DNA from: Thermoleophilia bacterium
GTDB lineage: Bacteria; Actinomycetota; Thermoleophilia; Miltoncostaeales; Miltoncostaeaceae
Direction of reading: 5' to 3'
Assembly: GCA_020848615.1 (NCBI GenBank)
Contig: JADLHW010000059.1
Span: 1-64,000, forward strand
Length of the DNA stretch: 64,000 bases
Positions 7,370 through 63,762 of the stretch are shown here, piece after piece. The notes beneath the pieces were generated by a model. That model worked only from the letters and a program-made list of their open reading frames with translations, did no database searches and was not told the DNA's origin. The position numbers were made by a program, and so were the translations under genes. Positions within the stretch are counted from its first letter, which is position 1, and every line of letters starts with the position of its first letter.

Positions 7370-8101
7370 CGCGTCGCCGGTGGCGGCGCCCGGCGGGTCG
7401 TCCGCCGGTGGCCCGGTGAACGGCGGCGCGTCCCACAGCCGCTCCAGGGCGTCCACGTCGACCGGCGGCGGCGGGCCCTCCTCGGCCTGCGCGGCGACCT
7501 CCGCCAGCACCGTGAGGGCCTCCGCTCGGGCGTGCTCCCACCACACCTCGTATCCGGGCGGCGGCGAGGCCGGGCGTGCGAGCCACCCCTCGATCGCCGC
7601 GACCCGCCGGTCGGGTTCCGGCCGGGCATCGCGGATGCAGGCGATCACCCCGCGGTGCCACAAGCGCGGCGGGAGCGCCATGAGGGCCAGCAGATGCGGG
7701 TCCACGACGTCCAGCTGGAAGTGCAGGAGGCGCATGAGCGGCTCCTGGGGCCTCAGGCCGCGGCCGGTCCAGAACGCGGTGCGCAGCTCCCGCAGGGCGA
7801 GGGCGGCCTCGTGCACGGTGAGCTGCTCGGCCGGCTGGGCGGCGGCGCCGGCGTGCAGCATCGTCCAGGCCGCCAGGGCGGGGATGGCGCCCAGGGCGTC
7901 GGCGCCGTGCCGGCGCAGGCCGGACACCGCCGCCCGGCTCTCGATCCACCGGTGGGGGCGCAGCGCACCGGCGAGGGTGCCCACCACGCCCGCCGCTCCG
8001 CCGCAGCCGTGCACGCCGATCGCCAGGCCGGCGCGGCCGTCGGCGGGGAACGCGCGGGCCACCAGGTCGGCGCCCGGGTAGTGGTCGTCCGGCGGGGGCA
8101 T
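7367..8101 (-). CDS. Hypothetical protein, 244 residues
   Basis: Begins MPPPDDHYPGADLVARAFP and ends GAATGDA. It is rich in Ala, Leu and Trp and looks mainly alpha-helical. No signal peptide or clear membrane segment is present and no catalytic motif was recognised. The middle part (RPQEPLMRLLHFQLDVVDPHLLALMALPPRLW) is the most conserved-looking stretch. The ATG at 8101 has a TACGCT box 9 nt upstream. It is divergent from gltX, 99 nt apart. No function is proposed. Confidence 0.75.
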   Translation of the reverse strand: MPPPDDHYPGADLVARAFPADGRAGLAIGVHGCGGAAGVVGTLAGALRPHRWIESRAAVSGLRRHGADALGAIPALAAWTMLHAGAAAQPAEQLTVHEAALALRELRTAFWTGRGLRPQEPLMRLLHFQLDVVDPHLLALMALPPRLWHRGVIACIRDARPEPDRRVAAIEGWLARPASPPPGYEVWWEHARAEALTVLAEVAAQAEEGPPPPVDVDALERLWDAPPFTGPPADDPPGAATGDA

Positions 8102-8188
8102 GGCGGGGCCAGCGTATGCCGGGCGGGGCCTGCGGCGCACGTCCTGGCGGCGTGCCCGGCGGGGCGGGGCGCGGCGTCGCCGCGTCGG

Positions 8189-8194
8189 TATCCT
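8189..8194 (+). promoter_or_regulatory. -10 box of the leaderless gltX promoter
   Basis: TATCCT followed by exactly 6 nt (TGCCGG) and the GTG start of gltX. This supports the GTG at 8201 despite the lack of a ribosome binding site. Confidence 0.6.
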
Positions 8195-8200
8195 TGCCGG

Positions 8201-9667
8201 GTGGCTCCTCCTCAGCGTCGTGACATCACCGGGCCCGCGCGCGTCCGGTTCGCACCCAGCCCCACCGGCAACCTCCATGTGGGCTCCGCGCGCACCGCCC
8301 TGTTCAACTGGCTCGTGGCCCGCCACACCGGCGGCACGTTCATCCTCCGGCTGGAGGACACCGACCGGGAGCGCTCCACGCCCGAGAGCGAGGCGCAGAT
8401 CCTGCGCGCGATGGCGTGGCTCGGCCTGGACTGGGACGAGGGCCCGTACCGGCAGAGCGAACGCGACGAGGTGTACCGCGCCGCCATCGAGCGGCTCAAG
8501 GCGTCCGGTGCCGTCTATGCCGCGTGGGAGTCGGAGGAGGAGCTGGAGGCACAGCGGGCCGCCGCCCGCGCCGACAAGCGCGCCCCCGTGGTGCGGGGCC
8601 GCCGCGACTGGAGCGAGGCGGACATCGCCCGGTTCCAGGCGGAGGGCCGCAGGCCCGCCTGGCGGTTCGCCGTGGAGCTCGACGGGCGCACGGTCATCGA
8701 CGACTACGTCCGCGGCGAGGTCGCGTTCGAGCACGGCGCCATCGAGGACTTCGTGGTGGCCCGGTCCGACGGCACGCCCACCTACAACCTGGCGGCCGCC
8801 GTCGACGACCTGGAGATGGGCATCACCCACGTGGTGCGCGGCGAGGACCACATCTCCAACACGCCCAAGCAGATGATGGTCATCCGCGCGCTGGACGGCA
8901 CCCCGCCGCAGTACGCGCACATCCCGCTCATCCTGGGACCCGACAAGAAACGCCTGTCCAAGCGCCACGGGGCGGCGTCGGTGGAGGACCTGCAGGAGGC
9001 CGGCTACATCCCTGCGGCGGTCATCAACGCCCTGGCCCTGCTGGGCTGGAGCTTCGACGACAAGACCACGATGTTCACCGTGCCGGAGCTCGTCGAGCGG
9101 TTCTCCGTCGCCCGCATCAGCAAGAGCCCGGCGGTGTTCGACCTCAAGAAGCTGCAGGTCATCAACGGCCGGTACCTGCGGATGATGGACGACGCCACGT
9201 TCACCGCCACCCTCATGGAGCACCTGGTGCGCACCGGCTATGTCACCACGCCGGAGCAGGAGGCCCTGGCCGCGCGGGTGGCGCCGTCGGTGAAGCGCAA
9301 GCTGTCCACCCTCGGGGAGTTCGACATCCTCGCGGGCTGGCTGTTCCGGCCCCTGGAGATGGACCCGGAGGCGTGGGCGCAGCTCACCGCCGACGTGCGG
9401 CGGTCGATCCAGGTGGTGGGGGCGGGCCTCGGGCGCCTGGAGCAGCTGGAGGACTGGACCGCCGAGGCCATCAAGGAGGTCCTCCAGGATCAGCTGCACG
9501 TCCTGGGGGAGGACGCCCGCGGGTTCCTGGAGCCGCAGCGCGTCGCGATCACCGGGCAGCGGGTGTCCACCGGCATCTACGAGAGCATGGTGCTGCTGGG
9601 CCGCGAGCAGACCCTCGCCCGCCTGCGGGACACGCTGGCCAAGCTCGCGGAGATCTGGGTGGCCTGA
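8201..9667 (+). CDS. gltX: Glutamyl-tRNA synthetase
   Basis: A 488-residue class I aminoacyl-tRNA synthetase that charges tRNA-Glu (and possibly tRNA-Gln, if the non-discriminating form). The HIGH-type signature is FAPSPTGNLHVGSART near the N-terminus and the KMSKS-type loop is KKRLSKRHG. The acceptor end-binding region with LEDTDRERS and the helical anticodon-binding C-terminal domain are present. Length is typical. GTG at 8201 is chosen because the first conserved residues follow shortly and a TATCCT box lies 6 nt upstream. The stop TGA shares one base with the ATG of the next gene. Confidence 0.96.
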   Translation: MAPPQRRDITGPARVRFAPSPTGNLHVGSARTALFNWLVARHTGGTFILRLEDTDRERSTPESEAQILRAMAWLGLDWDEGPYRQSERDEVYRAAIERLKASGAVYAAWESEEELEAQRAAARADKRAPVVRGRRDWSEADIARFQAEGRRPAWRFAVELDGRTVIDDYVRGEVAFEHGAIEDFVVARSDGTPTYNLAAAVDDLEMGITHVVRGEDHISNTPKQMMVIRALDGTPPQYAHIPLILGPDKKRLSKRHGAASVEDLQEAGYIPAAVINALALLGWSFDDKTTMFTVPELVERFSVARISKSPAVFDLKKLQVINGRYLRMMDDATFTATLMEHLVRTGYVTTPEQEALAARVAPSVKRKLSTLGEFDILAGWLFRPLEMDPEAWAQLTADVRRSIQVVGAGLGRLEQLEDWTAEAIKEVLQDQLHVLGEDARGFLEPQRVAITGQRVSTGIYESMVLLGREQTLARLRDTLAKLAEIWVA

Positions 9668-21397: not shown

Positions 21398-21586
21398 TCA
21401 TGCGGCGGAGTCCTCGGTGGACTCGGCGGCCTGCGCCTGGGGGGACTCGCCCTCGGCGCCGAGGCCGAGCGCGGAGCGCCAGTCCTTCGGGAGCTCCTTG
21501 TCCCAGGGGGTGAGCTTCTTGCCATGGTTCGGGATCGCCTGAGGGTTCGATCCGAACCAGCGGTTGGGGTACTTGGAATCGACCAT
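21398..21586 (-). CDS. Small conserved-looking protein, 62 residues
   Basis: Begins MVDSKYPNRWFGSNPQAI and continues PNHGKKLTPWDKELPKDWRS, then a low-complexity Ala/Glu/Ser tail. The N-terminal half is dense in Trp, Pro, Lys and Asn, unlike random high-GC frames, which argues that it is real. No function is recognised. TAGGCT lies 7 nt upstream of the ATG, consistent with leaderless expression. Confidence 0.65.
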   Translation of the reverse strand: MVDSKYPNRWFGSNPQAIPNHGKKLTPWDKELPKDWRSALGLGAEGESPQAQAAESTEDSAA

Positions 21587-57639: not shown

Positions 57640-57843
57640 ATGGCGCTCAGCGCGCGCAACCAGCTGCCCGGAACCGTCACCGCGATCCACATGGGCGAGG
57701 TGATGGCGGAGGTCGAGGTCGCCGTGGGCGACCACCAGGTGGTGTCCGTGATCACGCGCCGCAGCGTCGAGGCGCTCGGACTCGGCGTCGGCGACAAGGT
57801 CACGGTGGTCATCAAGTCCACCGAGGTCATGCTCGCCACCTGA
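57640..57843 (+). CDS. Molybdopterin/molybdate-binding protein (Mop, TOBE domain)
   Basis: A 67-residue single-domain protein: LSARNQLPGTVTAIHMGEVMAEVEV, VVSVITRRSVEALGLGVGDKVTVVIKSTEVML. This is the complete Mop/TOBE pattern; such proteins bind molybdate or tungstate in oligomers for storage or homeostasis. AGGAGG lies 5 nt before the ATG and a TACGCT box at 57589-57594 gives the promoter. The convergent XdhC-like gene fits a molybdoenzyme link. Confidence 0.92.
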   Translation: MALSARNQLPGTVTAIHMGEVMAEVEVAVGDHQVVSVITRRSVEALGLGVGDKVTVVIKSTEVMLAT

Positions 57844-57848
57844 GGCGG

Positions 57849-58874
57849 TCAGCCCGGCGCGGCCACCACCGGCCGCGCCGCCGCGGCCCGGAACGTCGCC
57901 ACGATCTCCGCGCCGATCGCAACCGCCACCTCCTGGGGCGTCCTCGCTCCGATCGCCATCCCGATGGGCGCGTGCACGCGGGCCAACCGCTCCTCGGAGA
58001 TGCCCTCCTCCAACAGGAGCCGCCGGCGGCGGTCGGTGGTGCGCCGGCTGCCCATCGCGCCGATGTACCCGGCGTCGGTGTCCAGCGCCACGCGGATCGC
58101 GGGCACGTCGTACTTGGCGTCGTGGGTGAGCACGCAGATCACGGTGCGGCGGTCCACCGGCGCCCGCTCCAGGAACCGGTGCGGCCACTCGGCGACCAGC
58201 TCGTCGGCATCCGGGAACCGGTCGGCCGTGAGGAACGCCCGGCGGGCGTCGACCACGGTGACCCGGTAGCCCAGGAACCGCCCCATCCGCGCGACCGCGG
58301 CCGCGTGGTCGATGGCCCCGAACACGTACATCGCGGCGCGCGGCACCAGGGAGTGGACGAGGACGGTGTCGTCCCCGACCTCGGCGACGCCGCTGGCGCC
58401 GCACGCGAGCAGGACGCGGGCCGCCGTGGTGAGCGGGTCCGCCGGAACGGCGCTCCAGCCCACAACGCGCGGCGGGGTGCCCAGCGACGGCCCGGCGACG
58501 ACCGTGGCGTACGCCACGGGACGGTCCGCCTCGACGGCCGCCGACAATGCGAGCACCGCGTCCGCGTCGAGCGGCTCGATGAAGATGTCCACCTGCCCGC
58601 CGCACGGCAGGCCCACCGCCACCGCGTCCTCGTCGGCGATCCCGTACGGCATGAGGCACGGCGGGGCGCCGTCCAGCACCCGGCGCGCGTGCTCGAGGAC
58701 GTCGGGTTCCACGCAGCCGCCGGTCACCGACCCCAGGATCCGGCCGTCGTCGAGGAGGACCATCGCGGACCCCGCCTGGCGCGGCGCGGACCGGTAGACG
58801 TGGGCGACGACGGCGATCGCGCCGCGGTGACCGGCTTCGACCGCGGAGGCGAGGGCGGGCAGCAGGTCGCGCAC
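57849..58874 (-). CDS. XdhC/CoxI-family molybdoenzyme maturation protein
   Basis: A 341-residue protein. The N-terminal XdhC_CoxI domain has VVAHVYRSAPRQAGSAMVLLDDGRILGSVTGGCVEP, and the C-terminal Rossmann-like domain has MYVFGAIDHAAAVARMGRFLGYRVTVVDAR, VICVLTHDAKYDVPAI, AGYIGAMGSRRTTDRR and HAPIGMAIGARTPQEVAVAIGAEIVA. Family members help load or sulfurate the molybdenum cofactor of xanthine-dehydrogenase-type enzymes. No such enzyme is in the window. The GTG start lies 1 nt from the stop of the PadR-like gene upstream. Confidence 0.92.
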   Translation of the reverse strand: MRDLLPALASAVEAGHRGAIAVVAHVYRSAPRQAGSAMVLLDDGRILGSVTGGCVEPDVLEHARRVLDGAPPCLMPYGIADEDAVAVGLPCGGQVDIFIEPLDADAVLALSAAVEADRPVAYATVVAGPSLGTPPRVVGWSAVPADPLTTAARVLLACGASGVAEVGDDTVLVHSLVPRAAMYVFGAIDHAAAVARMGRFLGYRVTVVDARRAFLTADRFPDADELVAEWPHRFLERAPVDRRTVICVLTHDAKYDVPAIRVALDTDAGYIGAMGSRRTTDRRRRLLLEEGISEERLARVHAPIGMAIGARTPQEVAVAIGAEIVATFRAAAARPVVAAPG

Positions 58875-58875
58875 G

Positions 58876-59424
58876 TCAGCGCCGGGGCGCGGAGGTGGCC
58901 TCGGCGATGAACCGCATCGCCGCCAGGCAGGTCTCGAGGCGCCAGCTCATGAGCATCCGCTCGAACCCGGAGGCGCGTTCAAGCCGCTCCCGGAAGCGCA
59001 CCGCCATGGGTTCCAGCACGGCCCGCTGCGCCTCGAGGAGGTCACCTGGATCCCCGCCGGCGCGATCGACGAACAGCAGCTTGAGCAGCAGCTCCGAGCG
59101 CAGGTCCCGGACGTGCTCCGCGGGGCCCGCGAGCCACGCGGTGACGGCGGCCCGTCCGCCGTCCGTCGCGGCCAGCAGGCGCCGCTCGGGACGCATCTCC
59201 ACCCGGGACACCCCGGTCTCGACGATCCACCCCGCCTCGGTGAGGGCGTGCAGCGCCCGGTAGACCCGCGCCCGTGAACACGACCACACCCTGCCCACCT
59301 CACCGTCGGGCGCCATCGCCCGGACGACGGTCCAGCCGTGCGCCCCGCCCTCGGCGACCAGCGCGAGGGCGGCCCAGTCGGCGAGGGCGAGCTGCCGGTG
59401 CGGATCGCCTGCCATCGCGACCAC
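58876..59424 (-). CDS. PadR-like winged-helix regulator
   Basis: A 182-residue protein: LADWAALALVAEGGAHGWTVVRAMAPDGEVGRVWSCSRARVYRALHALTEAGWIVE is the winged helix, followed by a helical C-terminal domain (about 95-180) typical of PadR proteins for dimerisation. GTG 59424 or ATG 59415 may be the start. Directly upstream of the XdhC-like gene, so it may control or be co-expressed with it. Confidence 0.8.
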   Translation of the reverse strand: MVAMAGDPHRQLALADWAALALVAEGGAHGWTVVRAMAPDGEVGRVWSCSRARVYRALHALTEAGWIVETGVSRVEMRPERRLLAATDGGRAAVTAWLAGPAEHVRDLRSELLLKLLFVDRAGGDPGDLLEAQRAVLEPMAVRFRERLERASGFERMLMSWRLETCLAAMRFIAEATSAPRR

Positions 59425-59466
59425 GTTACCGCCATCGGCTCCGGCTTCCGCAGCGGCCGGGGCGCG

Positions 59467-59778
59467 TCATGCGTCCCGCAGCGCCCGGCGCCCCAGCGCG
59501 GTGGGCGACCACGGCGCGTACGGACCGTCCTGGGTCACCAGCCCGTGGTCCCGCATGCGGCGCAACGCCCGGTACGCCTGGTCCACCGACAGCCCGCCGG
59601 ACAGGTGCGAGGTCCGCGACGGACGGCGGAGCTCCGGGCCGGGATTGCGGCGCAGCGCCGTCACGAGCTCCCCGGTGCCCATGGAGCCGTGCTCCGCGAG
59701 CTCCAGGAGCATCCGGCGTTCCCGTGCCGACAGGGTGCCCTGCGGCGCGCGGTGCCGGGTGCCGGTGGAAGTGCCCAT
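59467..59778 (-). CDS. Small winged-helix regulator linked to the monooxygenase
   Basis: A 103-residue protein: LSARERRMLLELAEHGSMGTGELVTALRRNPG, SHLSGGLSVDQAYRALRRMRDHGLVTQDG, WSPTALGRRALRDA. This is a compact winged helix. ATG 59778 is preferred over one 42 nt upstream because GAGGGGC directly precedes it. It follows the monooxygenase gene on the same strand, and both have an AGTCC-N5-GGACT palindrome before them, so it is the likely repressor of both. Confidence 0.75.
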   Translation of the reverse strand: MGTSTGTRHRAPQGTLSARERRMLLELAEHGSMGTGELVTALRRNPGPELRRPSRTSHLSGGLSVDQAYRALRRMRDHGLVTQDGPYAPWSPTALGRRALRDA

Positions 59779-59810
59779 GCCCCTCGTCCCGTCCGAACAG
59801 CGGTGGGGGG

Positions 59811-59825
59811 AGTCCAACACGGACT
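59811..59825. promoter_or_regulatory. Palindrome before the winged-helix gene
   Basis: AGTCC (59811-59815), 5-nt spacer, GGACT (59821-59825), 33 nt before the start. The same arms and spacer length occur before the monooxygenase gene at 61118-61138. Confidence 0.6.
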
Positions 59826-59842
59826 AATCGCATATGCAACAC

Positions 59843-61090
59843 CTATGCGACGCTGGCCTCGGGCAGCGTCCCGTCCGGCTCCCGGGTCCACAGCCATTCG
59901 TAGGAGCTGAAGTCGGCGCGCCCCGCGGCGAGGTCCGCGTCGCGGCGCCGCTGGTCCGGCCCGTCGGGCAGGTGGAACAGCCGCCCGTTCTCCCGGGATG
60001 CGGCCTGCACGCGGGCGGCGCGCGGCCGCCGGATCGCCGCGTACCGCGCGAGGGCCGCCGGGACGTCGGCCGCCGTGGCACCCGTCAGGACGTCCGCCAG
60101 GACCGCCGCGTCCTCGATGGCCTGCACGGCGCCCTGCGCCTGGAAGGGCAGCATGGGGTGGCATGCGTCGCCCAGCAGGCACACCCGCCCGCGCGCCCAC
60201 TCGGGCAGCGGCGTGCGGTCGTGCAGGCCGTACGCGGTGACCTCGGGGGCGGCGTCCATGAGCCGGTGGATCCGGGGGTCCCACCCTGCGAACCGCTCGT
60301 GGAGGACGGCGCGGTCCACCGGCGACGACCAGAAGCCCCGGTCCTCGGGTGTGCCCGCGGTGGTGACGCCCATGTAGACCCCGCCGCCGCCGCGGATGGG
60401 GTGGGTGATGACGTGTCCCGCCGGCCCGATCCAGATGTTCTGCGCCGGCCGGGCGAGCAGCCGCATGAGCCCGCGGTCCGCGGCGAGATCCGGCATGTCG
60501 ATGATGTGGCGGTTCGTGACCCGGCCGCTGAACGTGGGCGCCTGCGGGCCGAACAGGGACTCCCGCACCGCGGACCGGACCCCGTCGGCGCCCACCACCA
60601 CGTCGGCCTCGTACTCGACCCCGTCGGCGGTCATCACCGCCGCGGCGTCCGGGCCGGTGCGGGTGACGTGCGTGACGTGCGATCCCAGGACGAGCTGCAC
60701 CGGGATGCCGCCGCCGGGGCCGGTCGCGGCCCGCACCAGGGCGGCGTGCAGGTCGGCGCGGTGGCAGCACCAGTACGACGCGCCGACGCGCGCGATCACC
60801 TGGGCGCCCAGGGGCACCTCGCCCAGCACGGTGCCGTCGTCCCAGCGGCGCCGCACGGCCGCCTCCGCCGGGACGCAGCTGTCGCGCATGTGGTCCAGGG
60901 CGCCCCAGCGGTCCAGCAGCCTCGCGGCGTTCGCCGCCATCTGGATGCCGGCGCCCACCACGCCGAGCGCGTCGGCCTGCTCCACCACGAACACCTCGTG
61001 CCCGGCCCGGCGGAGCGCGATGGCGGCCGACAACCCGCCCATCCCGGCGCCGGCGACGAGGCAGGTGAGGCGGGCGGCGCGTGCGGGCAT
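59843..61090 (-). CDS. FAD-dependent monooxygenase (salicylate hydroxylase-like)
   Basis: A 415-residue group A flavoprotein monooxygenase. The FAD-binding signature is LVAGAGMGGLSAAIALRRAGHEVFVVEQ, the DG motif VVGADGVRSAVRESL and the GD motif CLLGDACHPMLPFQAQGAVQAIEDAAVLA. Such enzymes hydroxylate aromatic or heteroaromatic rings with NAD(P)H and oxygen, e.g. salicylate or 6-hydroxynicotinate. ATG 61090 follows CCAGGAGC. A 21-bp palindrome lies 28 nt upstream. An inverted repeat TCGCATA/TATGCGA (59828-59850) spans the stop codon. Confidence 0.9.
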   Translation of the reverse strand: MPARAARLTCLVAGAGMGGLSAAIALRRAGHEVFVVEQADALGVVGAGIQMAANAARLLDRWGALDHMRDSCVPAEAAVRRRWDDGTVLGEVPLGAQVIARVGASYWCCHRADLHAALVRAATGPGGGIPVQLVLGSHVTHVTRTGPDAAAVMTADGVEYEADVVVGADGVRSAVRESLFGPQAPTFSGRVTNRHIIDMPDLAADRGLMRLLARPAQNIWIGPAGHVITHPIRGGGGVYMGVTTAGTPEDRGFWSSPVDRAVLHERFAGWDPRIHRLMDAAPEVTAYGLHDRTPLPEWARGRVCLLGDACHPMLPFQAQGAVQAIEDAAVLADVLTGATAADVPAALARYAAIRRPRAARVQAASRENGRLFHLPDGPDQRRRDADLAAGRADFSSYEWLWTREPDGTLPEASVA

Positions 61091-61117
61091 GGGTGCTCCT
61101 GGTCCGGTGGGCGGGCA

Positions 61118-61138
61118 TATAGTCCATGTCGGACTATA
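61118..61138. promoter_or_regulatory. Palindromic operator before the monooxygenase gene
   Basis: TATAGTCC (61118-61125), spacer ATGTC, GGACTATA (61131-61138): perfect 8-bp arms. It contains TATAGT and lies 28 nt before the ATG, so it overlaps the expected promoter. Confidence 0.75.
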
Positions 61139-61245
61139 GGGTCGGGAAACCACCGGCCGCACGCGGGTTTTCGGAGTTCGGGACGTCGCGTGTAGTCTCG
61201 GCCCGGCCGGCGGACGGTCGCCGGCGGACGTTTCCAGGTGGTCGG

Positions 61246-63762
61246 ATGCCCTCAGAGGAGAGCTGGCGGGCGATCGTCGAGGCCTCCCCGGACGCGGTCG
61301 TCTGCACGGACGTCCGGGGGCGCATCCAGACGTTCAACCCCGCGGCGGAGCGATTGTTCGGATACCGGGCGGACGAGGTCGTCGGCCGGGACGTCGCCAT
61401 CCTCATGACCGCCACCGACGCCGCCGCGCATCCCGGCCACATCGCGCGGGTGCGCGAGGGCGGCGCGCCGGCGGTGCTGGGCGTCGCCGGCCGTGAGGTC
61501 ACCGGGCGTCATCGCGACGGCCGGGAGCTGCCCCTGCGGCTGTCCCTGGGCGCGCCCGCCCAGGGCGGGGGATTCGTGGGCGTGCTGCGGGACGCGGCCC
61601 TCGAGGTGTCCGCCCGGGAGGCGCTGCGCGCCAGGGACGCCGAGTACGCGGCCGTGGTGGGGGCGATCACCGAGGGGATCGTCGTGCAGCGGGCCGACGG
61701 GACCATCGTGACCTCCAACCCCGCGGCCCGCCGGATCCTGGGCCTCACCGAGGATGACGTCGGCGGGCGCACGGGCCACGACCCCTGCTGGCGCGCCGTG
61801 CGGGAGGACGGCACCGGGCTCCCCCGGGAGGAGCACCCGGCGATGCTGGCCCTGCGCACGGGGACCCCCGTGGAGGGCGTGGTGATGGGCACGGACCGGG
61901 GCGACGGCGTGCGCACCTGGATCGAGGTGAGCGCGTACCCCATCCCGCTCGCGGGGACCGACGCCCCCGGCGTGGTGAGCGTGCTCCGCGACGTCACGCG
62001 GGAACGTGAGAAGCGGCGCCGCCTGGAGGAACGGGAGCGCTCGCTGCGCCTCCTCGCCGAGAACTCCACCGACGTGGTGCTGCGCACGCTGCCGGACTCG
62101 CGCATCGCCTACGCGTCCCCGGCGGCCGCCCGGCTGCTGGCGCTCGACCCGGAGGGCTTGGTGGGACGGCGCCTGGAGGAGGTGCTGCATCCCGACGACG
62201 CGGCGATGCTGCCGGAGTGGCGCGCGCGCGTGGACGCCGCCCCCGGGGTGACCACCGTGGACCTCCGGGTGCGGCGCGGCGACGGGGACTGGGAGTGGTG
62301 CGAGGCCACGGTCCGGGCGGTGCGCGGCCCCGAGGGAACCGTCGTGGAACGGCAATCGGCGTTTCGCTCCATCGCCCGCCGCAGGCGCATGACGGCCGCG
62401 CTCGCCGAGAGCCTGGGCCGCTACCGGGCGCTCATCGACCACCTGCCCGGCGGCGCCGTGCTGATGTACGACCACGACCTCACGGTGCTGCTGGCCGAGG
62501 GCCCCTCGATCGGTGCGCTCACCTACGGGGACGACGGCGAGGGACGGTACCTCCCGGGACTGCTGCCGGAGCGCGACCGGGACCGTGCCGCGGCGGCGTG
62601 CAACCGGGTGCTGCGGGGGGAGACCCTGCACTGGCGGGAGGACCTGCTGGGCCGTGTCTTCGACGCCACCATGACCCCGGTGTGGGCCGCCGGGAGGATC
62701 GCGGAGGGCATGGTGCTGGCCTTCGACGTCACCGAGCGGGCCCACCTGGAGGCCGAGCGCGCCGCGCTGCACGAGATCGCCCAGGCCGTCGCAAGCGACG
62801 CCTCGCCGGAGGTGGTGCTGGACCTCGTCGCGAGCCGCATCGCGGCCCTGTTCGACGCGGTGATCGCATCGGTGATGCGCCTGGAGCCCGACGGCGAGAT
62901 GGTCGTCCTCGCCTCGTCGCCGCAGGAGCACCGGGCGGTCGGGCCGGGGGCGCGGTTCCCGCTCCTCGACGCGATGTCGATCGGGCAGGCGGTGCGCACC
63001 GGCCGCCCGGCGGCCGTCACCGAGTGGCCGGAGGGACCCGACCCGATGCTCGAGACGCTGCGGCGCCACGGCGCCGTCGGCGCCGCCGCCGCCCCGGTGA
63101 TCATCCGCGGCCGGCTGTGGGGCGGCCTCGGGTTCGTGGGCTCCGACCCCGCGCGCCTGGACGAGGCGACCGCGGGAGGGCTGGGCCGCTTCGCGGACCT
63201 CGTGGCCACCACCATCGCGAACGCCGAGGAACGGCAGCGCCTGGAGCTGCGCGCCGCGACCGACGTGCTCACGGGCCTGGCGAACCGCGCGACGTTCGAC
63301 CAGCGGCTCCACGACGAGCTGGCGCGCGCCGCGGCGGGGGGAACGCCGCTGTCGCTGGTGCTGTTCGACGCCGACCACTTCAAGCGGGTGAACGACACGC
63401 ACGGCCACCTCGCCGGCGACCGCGTGCTCGTGGCGATCGCCGATGTGCTGCGCGGCGCCGCCCGGGCCGGCGACCTGATGGCCCGGATCGGCGGCGAGGA
63501 GTTCGGGTGGCTCATGCCGGGAGTGGACGGCGAGGACGCCCGGCATGCCGCCGAACGCGTGCGGGTCGCCCTCGGCGCGGTGGACCACGGCGCCGCGGGC
63601 AGGGTGACGGTGAGCGCCGGCGTCGCCCAGGCACTCGGGGACGGCGACGCGGTGGCCGGCCTGCTGCGCCGCGCCGACGAGGCGCTGTACGCGGCCAAGC
63701 GCGCCGGCCGCGACCGCGTCATCACCTGGGAGCGGGCCGGGCGGGAGGCCGCGGCGGGCTGA
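61246..63762 (+). CDS. PAS-GAF-GGDEF diguanylate cyclase
   Basis: An 838-residue soluble protein. PAS domains lie at about 5-115 (SWRAIVEASPDAVVCTDVRGRIQTFNPAAERLFGY), 130-250, 265-375 and a PAS-like part at 390-500; a GAF domain at about 510-660; and the diguanylate cyclase domain at 670-830 with GGEEF at 749-753. The RxxD inhibitory site (RAGD, 740-743) is intact, unlike in the other active GGDEF proteins of this window, so this enzyme should be product-inhibited. ATG 61246 follows CCAGGTGG. A TAGTCT box near 61192 may be its promoter. Confidence 0.93.
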   Translation: MPSEESWRAIVEASPDAVVCTDVRGRIQTFNPAAERLFGYRADEVVGRDVAILMTATDAAAHPGHIARVREGGAPAVLGVAGREVTGRHRDGRELPLRLSLGAPAQGGGFVGVLRDAALEVSAREALRARDAEYAAVVGAITEGIVVQRADGTIVTSNPAARRILGLTEDDVGGRTGHDPCWRAVREDGTGLPREEHPAMLALRTGTPVEGVVMGTDRGDGVRTWIEVSAYPIPLAGTDAPGVVSVLRDVTREREKRRRLEERERSLRLLAENSTDVVLRTLPDSRIAYASPAAARLLALDPEGLVGRRLEEVLHPDDAAMLPEWRARVDAAPGVTTVDLRVRRGDGDWEWCEATVRAVRGPEGTVVERQSAFRSIARRRRMTAALAESLGRYRALIDHLPGGAVLMYDHDLTVLLAEGPSIGALTYGDDGEGRYLPGLLPERDRDRAAAACNRVLRGETLHWREDLLGRVFDATMTPVWAAGRIAEGMVLAFDVTERAHLEAERAALHEIAQAVASDASPEVVLDLVASRIAALFDAVIASVMRLEPDGEMVVLASSPQEHRAVGPGARFPLLDAMSIGQAVRTGRPAAVTEWPEGPDPMLETLRRHGAVGAAAAPVIIRGRLWGGLGFVGSDPARLDEATAGGLGRFADLVATTIANAEERQRLELRAATDVLTGLANRATFDQRLHDELARAAAGGTPLSLVLFDADHFKRVNDTHGHLAGDRVLVAIADVLRGAARAGDLMARIGGEEFGWLMPGVDGEDARHAAERVRVALGAVDHGAAGRVTVSAGVAQALGDGDAVAGLLRRADEALYAAKRAGRDRVITWERAGREAAAG

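Follow-up and report, generated by a model that had tools for sequence, protein, structure and literature searches.

Matching palindromes in front of a flavin monooxygenase gene and its small winged-helix neighbour suggest a locally encoded regulatory switch

Results

Two matching palindromes were found ahead of neighbouring genes in a 64,000-nt stretch of DNA from a Thermoleophilia bacterium (the window), one in front of a predicted flavin monooxygenase gene (M site) and one in front of the gene for a 103-residue winged-helix protein (W site). They probably form an operator pair for a single self-regulating repressor that is encoded locally; operator function and repression are what we infer from the sequence and placement of the two sites. 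The arms, the spacer and a 13-base core are identical in the two gaps, which belong to the same strand and lie 1.3 kb apart.

Organization of the locus

The features of the locus are the following.

57849-58874, minus strand: molybdenum hydroxylase maturation factor of the XdhC type (PF13478, 9.2e-42; PF02625, 8.3e-21)
58876-59415, minus strand: PadR-family regulator, second candidate repressor (ATG 59415 or GTG 59424)
59467-59778, minus strand: 103-aa single-domain winged-helix protein, candidate repressor (ATG 59778)
59811-59825: W site, AGTCCAACACGGACT, palindrome AGTCC-N5-GGACT with 5-bp arms, located after the monooxygenase stop and ahead of the winged-helix start
59828-59850: second perfect dyad TCGCATA-N9-TATGCGA, overlapping the stop codon of the monooxygenase gene, 2 nt away from the W site
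59843-61090, minus strand: predicted group A FAD monooxygenase, 415 aa (ATG 61090, TAG 59843-59845)
61118-61138: M site, TATAGTCCATGTCGGACTATA, perfect 8-bp-arm palindrome TATAGTCC-N5-GGACTATA ahead of the monooxygenase
61246-63762, plus strand: PAS/GAF/GGDEF protein (from domain matches), divergent

On the minus strand the gene order in the window is monooxygenase, winged-helix, PadR-family and xdhC-type. The monooxygenase gene is separated by 64 nt from the winged-helix gene and by 155 nt from the divergent GGDEF gene; the former gap contains the W site and the latter the M site. Because the winged-helix and PadR-family genes are 51 nt apart, the PadR-family gene probably shares the transcript that follows the W site. 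The xdhC-type gene starts 1 nt after the PadR-family stop and is probably co-transcribed with that gene, and the transcript starting at the W site probably comprises the winged-helix, padR and xdhC genes.

A preliminary description of the window had noted AGTCC-N5-GGACT and its extended form ahead of same-strand neighbours, and both were found in those places; the length of 103 residues that it gave (59778 to 59467) was also correct. Its distances to the genes, 33 and 28 nt, were each one too large: 32 nt (59779-59810) lie between the W site and the winged-helix ATG, and 27 nt (61091-61117) between the M site and the monooxygenase ATG.

On the minus strand the sites read TAGTCCGTGTTGGACT and TAGTCCGACATGGACT and have the core TAGTCCG-N3-TGGACT in common; the outer TATA arms are absent from the W site. 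The arm centres are 10 bp, or one helical turn, apart, which would suit a symmetric dimer. The left arm of the M site contains TATAGT on the minus strand. This is a possible -10 hexamer, so that a protein bound to the M site would cover the promoter. A consensus scan of 59400-61300 returned no promoter, and the promoter positions were read by eye.

The repeats could also be RNA hairpins that control translation or termination rather than DNA operators. In favour of this explanation, a hairpin of 8 pairs was predicted for the M-site strand (z -2.23), and 3 of 200 shuffles matched it in stability. The matching hairpin was, however, absent from the predicted minimum of the W-site strand, which folded no better than its shuffles (z 0.27). 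In addition, no terminator-like site was found at the locus, and the shared bases outside the arms would be superfluous for a hairpin. As only the M site forms a hairpin better than most shuffles, the RNA explanation is highly improbable.

Occurrence of the palindrome in the genome

The 15-bp pattern AGTCC-N5-GGACT has three exact matches in the window. In the whole genome (3.64 Mb, 96.5% complete) it occurs at 10 places, compared to 4 for a reversed control, and most of the 10 are spanned by open frames. The pairing was evaluated on the 48 gaps of the window, with starts set by hand for the five genes of the locus and trimmed starts elsewhere. A palindrome that is equally informative and shared by neighbouring gaps appeared in 0 of 1000 dinucleotide shuffles. 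The real gaps held two further shared pairs, weaker and GC-rich, giving a total of 3, whereas the shuffles averaged 1.48. As evidence against chance, the pairing is strong, while the 15-bp pattern taken by itself counts for little.

The core TAGTCCG-N3-TGGACT has exact matches only at the M and W sites in the entire genome, and the extended 8-bp-arm palindrome has a single genomic location, its own genome being the only one of 399 from the class to contain it; these figures and the shuffle result are flattered, because the motif was defined after the sites had been seen. The scan for further sites that the preliminary description had called for thus ended at the two known ones as far as the exact core is concerned. 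With up to two mismatches the core gave 61 matches, all of which were classified. The M and W sites account for three of these 61 rows, the M site matching on the plus strand as well, with two mismatches, and they received the lowest coding scores of the set by a heuristic of our own design. By the same heuristic, the remaining matches lie in or near open frames of coding-like composition. A genome-wide regulon was rejected, as none of the other core matches scored lower for coding than the M and W sites. The next-lowest score belonged to window position 21409. This is the third exact match of the 15-bp pattern in the window (21409-21423), and a plausible reading frame of 62 codons (21398-21586, minus strand) encloses it.

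An earlier count with uncorrected starts gave 170 same-arm pairs within 3 kb, of which one other pair had both members intergenic. The M and W sites themselves were missed as an intergenic pair in that count, because the longest reading frames cover both.

These counts bear on two further explanations. The pair may be a coincidence without a regulatory role, as the 10 genomic places of the 15-bp pattern, mostly spanned by open frames, and the choice of the motif after the fact would allow; the shuffles and the restriction of the exact core to these two gaps argue against it, and we regard a coincidence as very unlikely. Alternatively, an unlinked regulator could bind both sites, since binding by a local protein is something we infer. 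As the exact core is found nowhere else in the 96.5% complete genome, such a regulator would have to serve this locus alone, which makes this explanation unlikely.

Comparison with a genus mate

The probable target of the M site was derived from a genus mate (G001, one genome, 84% complete). The GGDEF ortholog of G001 has 62% identity, and the hydrolase gene that follows it is, by eye, the same in both genomes. Upstream of the GGDEF gene, the monooxygenase cluster is replaced in G001 by a methyltransferase-like gene, named by eye (7655-8677, minus strand, in L073, G001:C55). Relatives of the monooxygenase, winged-helix, PadR-family and xdhC-type genes were absent at E 1e-3 from the 15-kb stretch of G001 that was compared, and the whole genome of G001 yielded no monooxygenase at 1e-40, no PadR at 1e-8 and no XdhC at 1e-20. 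The replacement beside a conserved GGDEF-hydrolase pair suggests that genes have been exchanged here.

In front of the GGDEF gene, the two genomes have the block GTTCGGGAC...TGTAGTCTC in common; its second part, TGTAGTCTC, follows after 4 nt in G001 and after 6 nt in the window. The palindrome is absent upstream of the GGDEF gene of G001. As G001 retains the GGDEF gene and has neither the cluster nor the palindrome, the palindrome most likely arrived as part of the monooxygenase cluster and acts for the monooxygenase; on this one genome comparison, the monooxygenase is the probable target of the M site. The M site was also considered as part of the GGDEF promoter, which is disfavoured since G001 shares the upstream block of the GGDEF gene and not the palindrome. 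Since the GGDEF gene has a conserved upstream block of its own, the M site probably does not act on it.

The monooxygenase

The monooxygenase contains an FAD-binding 3 domain (PF01494, 5.5e-24), and its translation includes GAGMGG, GADG and GDACHP, which we take to be the GxGxxG, DG and GD motifs of group A flavin monooxygenases. By this domain and these motifs, its sequence places it among the group A flavin monooxygenases. The best NCBIfam match was NF006021, 3-hydroxybenzoate 6-monooxygenase, at 2e-80, with 270.7 bits against a cut-off of 459, so the protein does not qualify as a member of this equivalog; it fell under the cut-off in each of the best 25 of 111 matched NCBIfam families. The closest solved relatives were 8gsm (8e-76, deposited as 4-hydroxybenzoate decarboxylase) and 8x38 (1.9e-69, decarboxylative vanillate 1-hydroxylase), followed by 8r2t (FAD-binding protein), 8rqh (tropone 2-monooxygenase) and 8uiq (6-hydroxynicotinate 3-monooxygenase). 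Judged by the depositors' names, the substrates of the closest relatives are of the hydroxybenzoate or vanillate type, and a phenolic or heteroaromatic acid may be the substrate of this enzyme.

Relatives of the monooxygenase at E ≤ 1e-40 were found in 3 of 149 related genomes and at 1e-60 in 4 of 396 genomes of the phylum, own genome included in both; the genome collection gave eight loci. The pattern AGTCC-N3..8-GGACT was present at 0 of the 14 loci of monooxygenase relatives examined, L025 being covered by the longer stretch L077. One relative with 50% identity (L014) has a different upstream repeat.

The candidate repressors

Two small DNA-binding proteins are probably encoded behind the W site, and each of them was considered as the binder of both palindromes. 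The product of the PadR-family gene (query 58879-59412, initiator at ATG 59415 omitted) matched PF03551 at 3.2e-7 with 30.7 bits, above the curated cut-off of 27, and aligned with the solved PadR regulators 8ioi, AphA (1yg2) and 5x11. The PadR family senses aromatic acids, and its operator has the form ATGT-N8-ACAT, which the arms of the M and W sites do not resemble. The structure model of the protein has two long C-terminal helices, 122-146 and 149-174, at low confidence (mean pLDDT 51.0). According to the available part of PMC6457526, PadR-1 proteins dimerize through a C-terminal helical domain and hold the ligand between domains, and Y20 and Y42 are signature tyrosines in the winged helix-turn-helix (wHTH) of Bacillus subtilis PadR. 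In the alignment with 5x11 the equivalent of Y42 is kept, and that of Y20 is a tryptophan.

For the 103-residue protein, no family was found at E ≤ 0.001. The best Pfam match had an E-value of 0.068, and only TrmB, IclR and HTH_20 appeared at 0.07-0.1; PF03551 was absent among the Pfam matches at E ≤ 1, no MarR domain was found in Pfam by sequence, and no solved relative was found at E ≤ 1. A single-sequence structure model of moderate confidence (mean pLDDT 63.8) showed helices at 18-30, 36-44, 65-77 and 94-102 with short strands between them, which is the winged-helix order. The top structural neighbour of this model was 4yif_F, with a Z-score of 9.2 and an rmsd of 4.6 over 73 residues. Most of the best neighbours were DNA-binding domains of the MarR type, matched over the DNA-binding part only, whereas the MarR dimer interface is formed by the helices that flank this part. 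Foldseek gave no match at E ≤ 0.001 (best E 0.09).

The 103-residue protein had matches at E ≤ 0.001 in 3 of 101 relatives and 6 of 396 phylum genomes, own genome included in both. One of the five matches outside the own genome was rejected as the end of an ATPase-like protein, a name read from its sequence. The other four look like chance matches: they are partial and gapped, one contains stops, and another is in a different frame with a weak score. No ortholog with the same neighbourhood was found among the relatives and phylum genomes, and plasmids and viral contigs gave no match.

The two versions of the operator-pair explanation differ in the binder. In one, the PadR-family protein represses both sites in answer to a phenolic or other aromatic acid, and the 103-residue protein has a different role. 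This version has a nearly even chance of being correct: the family assignment, the solved relatives, the two C-terminal helices resembling PadR-1 and the short distance to the winged-helix gene are consistent with it, while the replaced tyrosine, the unlike operator arms and the position one gene further from the W site speak against it. In the other version, the 103-residue protein itself represses both sites as a small dimer. Its gene is the first one after the W site, its model has the canonical winged-helix order with MarR-like matches, and the available part of PMC6457526 describes PadR-2 proteins of about 100 residues that dimerize through helices around the wHTH and bind operators in this form. 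However, the model ends in one short helix (94-102), while the PadR-2 protein LftR dimerizes via helices on both sides of the wHTH, one of which spans residues 80-104 (same source, in part). The missing flanking helices in the MarR matches, the lack of a family match and the moderate confidence of the model also weaken this version, which is quite possible and falls somewhat short of an even chance. The PadR-family protein is slightly favoured because of its longer build, compared to the short last helix of the 103-residue protein. A two-protein switch, in which the 103-residue protein, seemingly without a dimerization part, would partner or modulate the PadR-family protein on the palindromes, appears doubtful.

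Discussion

In the proposed switch, the M site would overlap the likely monooxygenase promoter and the W site would lie at the start of a second transcript with the winged-helix, PadR-family and xdhC genes. Without ligand, a repressor dimer may occupy both sites, blocking the monooxygenase and limiting its own transcript. An aromatic acid or another substrate, the presumed ligand, would free the repressor, and enzyme and regulator would rise together. The binder would be one of the two small DNA-binding proteins of the second transcript. Several observations speak against the proposal: the palindrome is missing from the 14 loci of monooxygenase relatives, the 103-residue protein gave no ortholog in a like neighbourhood, the consensus scan returned no promoter, the W site has no outer TATA arms, the arms are unlike the PadR operator, and the two structure models are weak. 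The preliminary description had proposed an autoregulated repressor controlling the enzyme and had assigned this role to the 103-residue protein. The locally shared two-site operator, placed for repression, is retained from this proposal. The 103-residue protein is one of two candidates, slightly behind the product of the PadR-family gene, which that description had left unweighed, and an aromatic compound is a possible signal. The word autoregulated fits either regulator, since the W-site transcript probably carries both genes.

The locus presumably resembles those of autoregulated aromatic-acid repressors such as PadR of B. subtilis and VanR of Corynebacterium, with a small winged-helix regulator near an enzyme of the aromatic-acid type, inverted repeats ahead of both and a PadR-family gene. 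Unlike in these systems, the arms differ from ATGT-N8-ACAT, one signature tyrosine is replaced, another small winged-helix gene intervenes and the enzyme belongs to the flavin monooxygenases rather than the decarboxylases. Self-regulated repressors with an operator at their own gene and at an enzyme gene have long been known in principle. By analogy, the module would work like the textbook local aromatic-acid repressors of the PadR, VanR and MarR types, and it would be ordinary, with no new principle shown.

With the aromatic-acid repressors of the MarR family, such as BpsR with 6-hydroxynicotinic acid (PMC6837509, available part) and CouR and NadR, whose structures were among the neighbours listed for the model, the locus shares a palindrome over a likely promoter and a 103-residue model that is nearest to their DNA-binding domain. 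It differs in that the 103 residues align to the DNA-binding part only and give no sequence match. The PadR-2 proteins LftR and LmrR are similar in having about 100 residues and a single winged-helix domain, and self-regulation has been proposed for LftR, whereas the 103-residue protein has no PF03551 match and a modelled final helix of 9 residues compared to 25 (PMC6457526, available part). When the arm letters were compared with the literature, this operator was not recognized among the matches listed. If the proposed switch is correct, the locus would hold a compact local switch for an uncharacterized aromatic-type monooxygenase, one whose operator sequence is unfamiliar, and possibly a ligand sensor.

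Additional features of the locus

The XdhC-type protein was considered as a pointer to a linked molybdenum hydroxylase. This was rejected, as the two MoCoBD_2 matches in the genome are both on other contigs. A small gene for a TOBE-domain protein of the molybdate-binding type (57640-57843, plus strand) and the xdhC-type gene are arranged tail to tail. The 62-codon frame at 21398-21586 begins MVDSKYPNRWFGSNPQ... and sits between larger gene models. The second dyad has a single exact copy in the genome and three other places with two mismatches; it may be a further operator or a hairpin at the end of an mRNA. The search with its pattern also brought up three near copies of GCGCATACGGC-CGGATACGCGA (G000:C118:8161-8392 and G000:C30:2-24), two of which are 209 bases apart.
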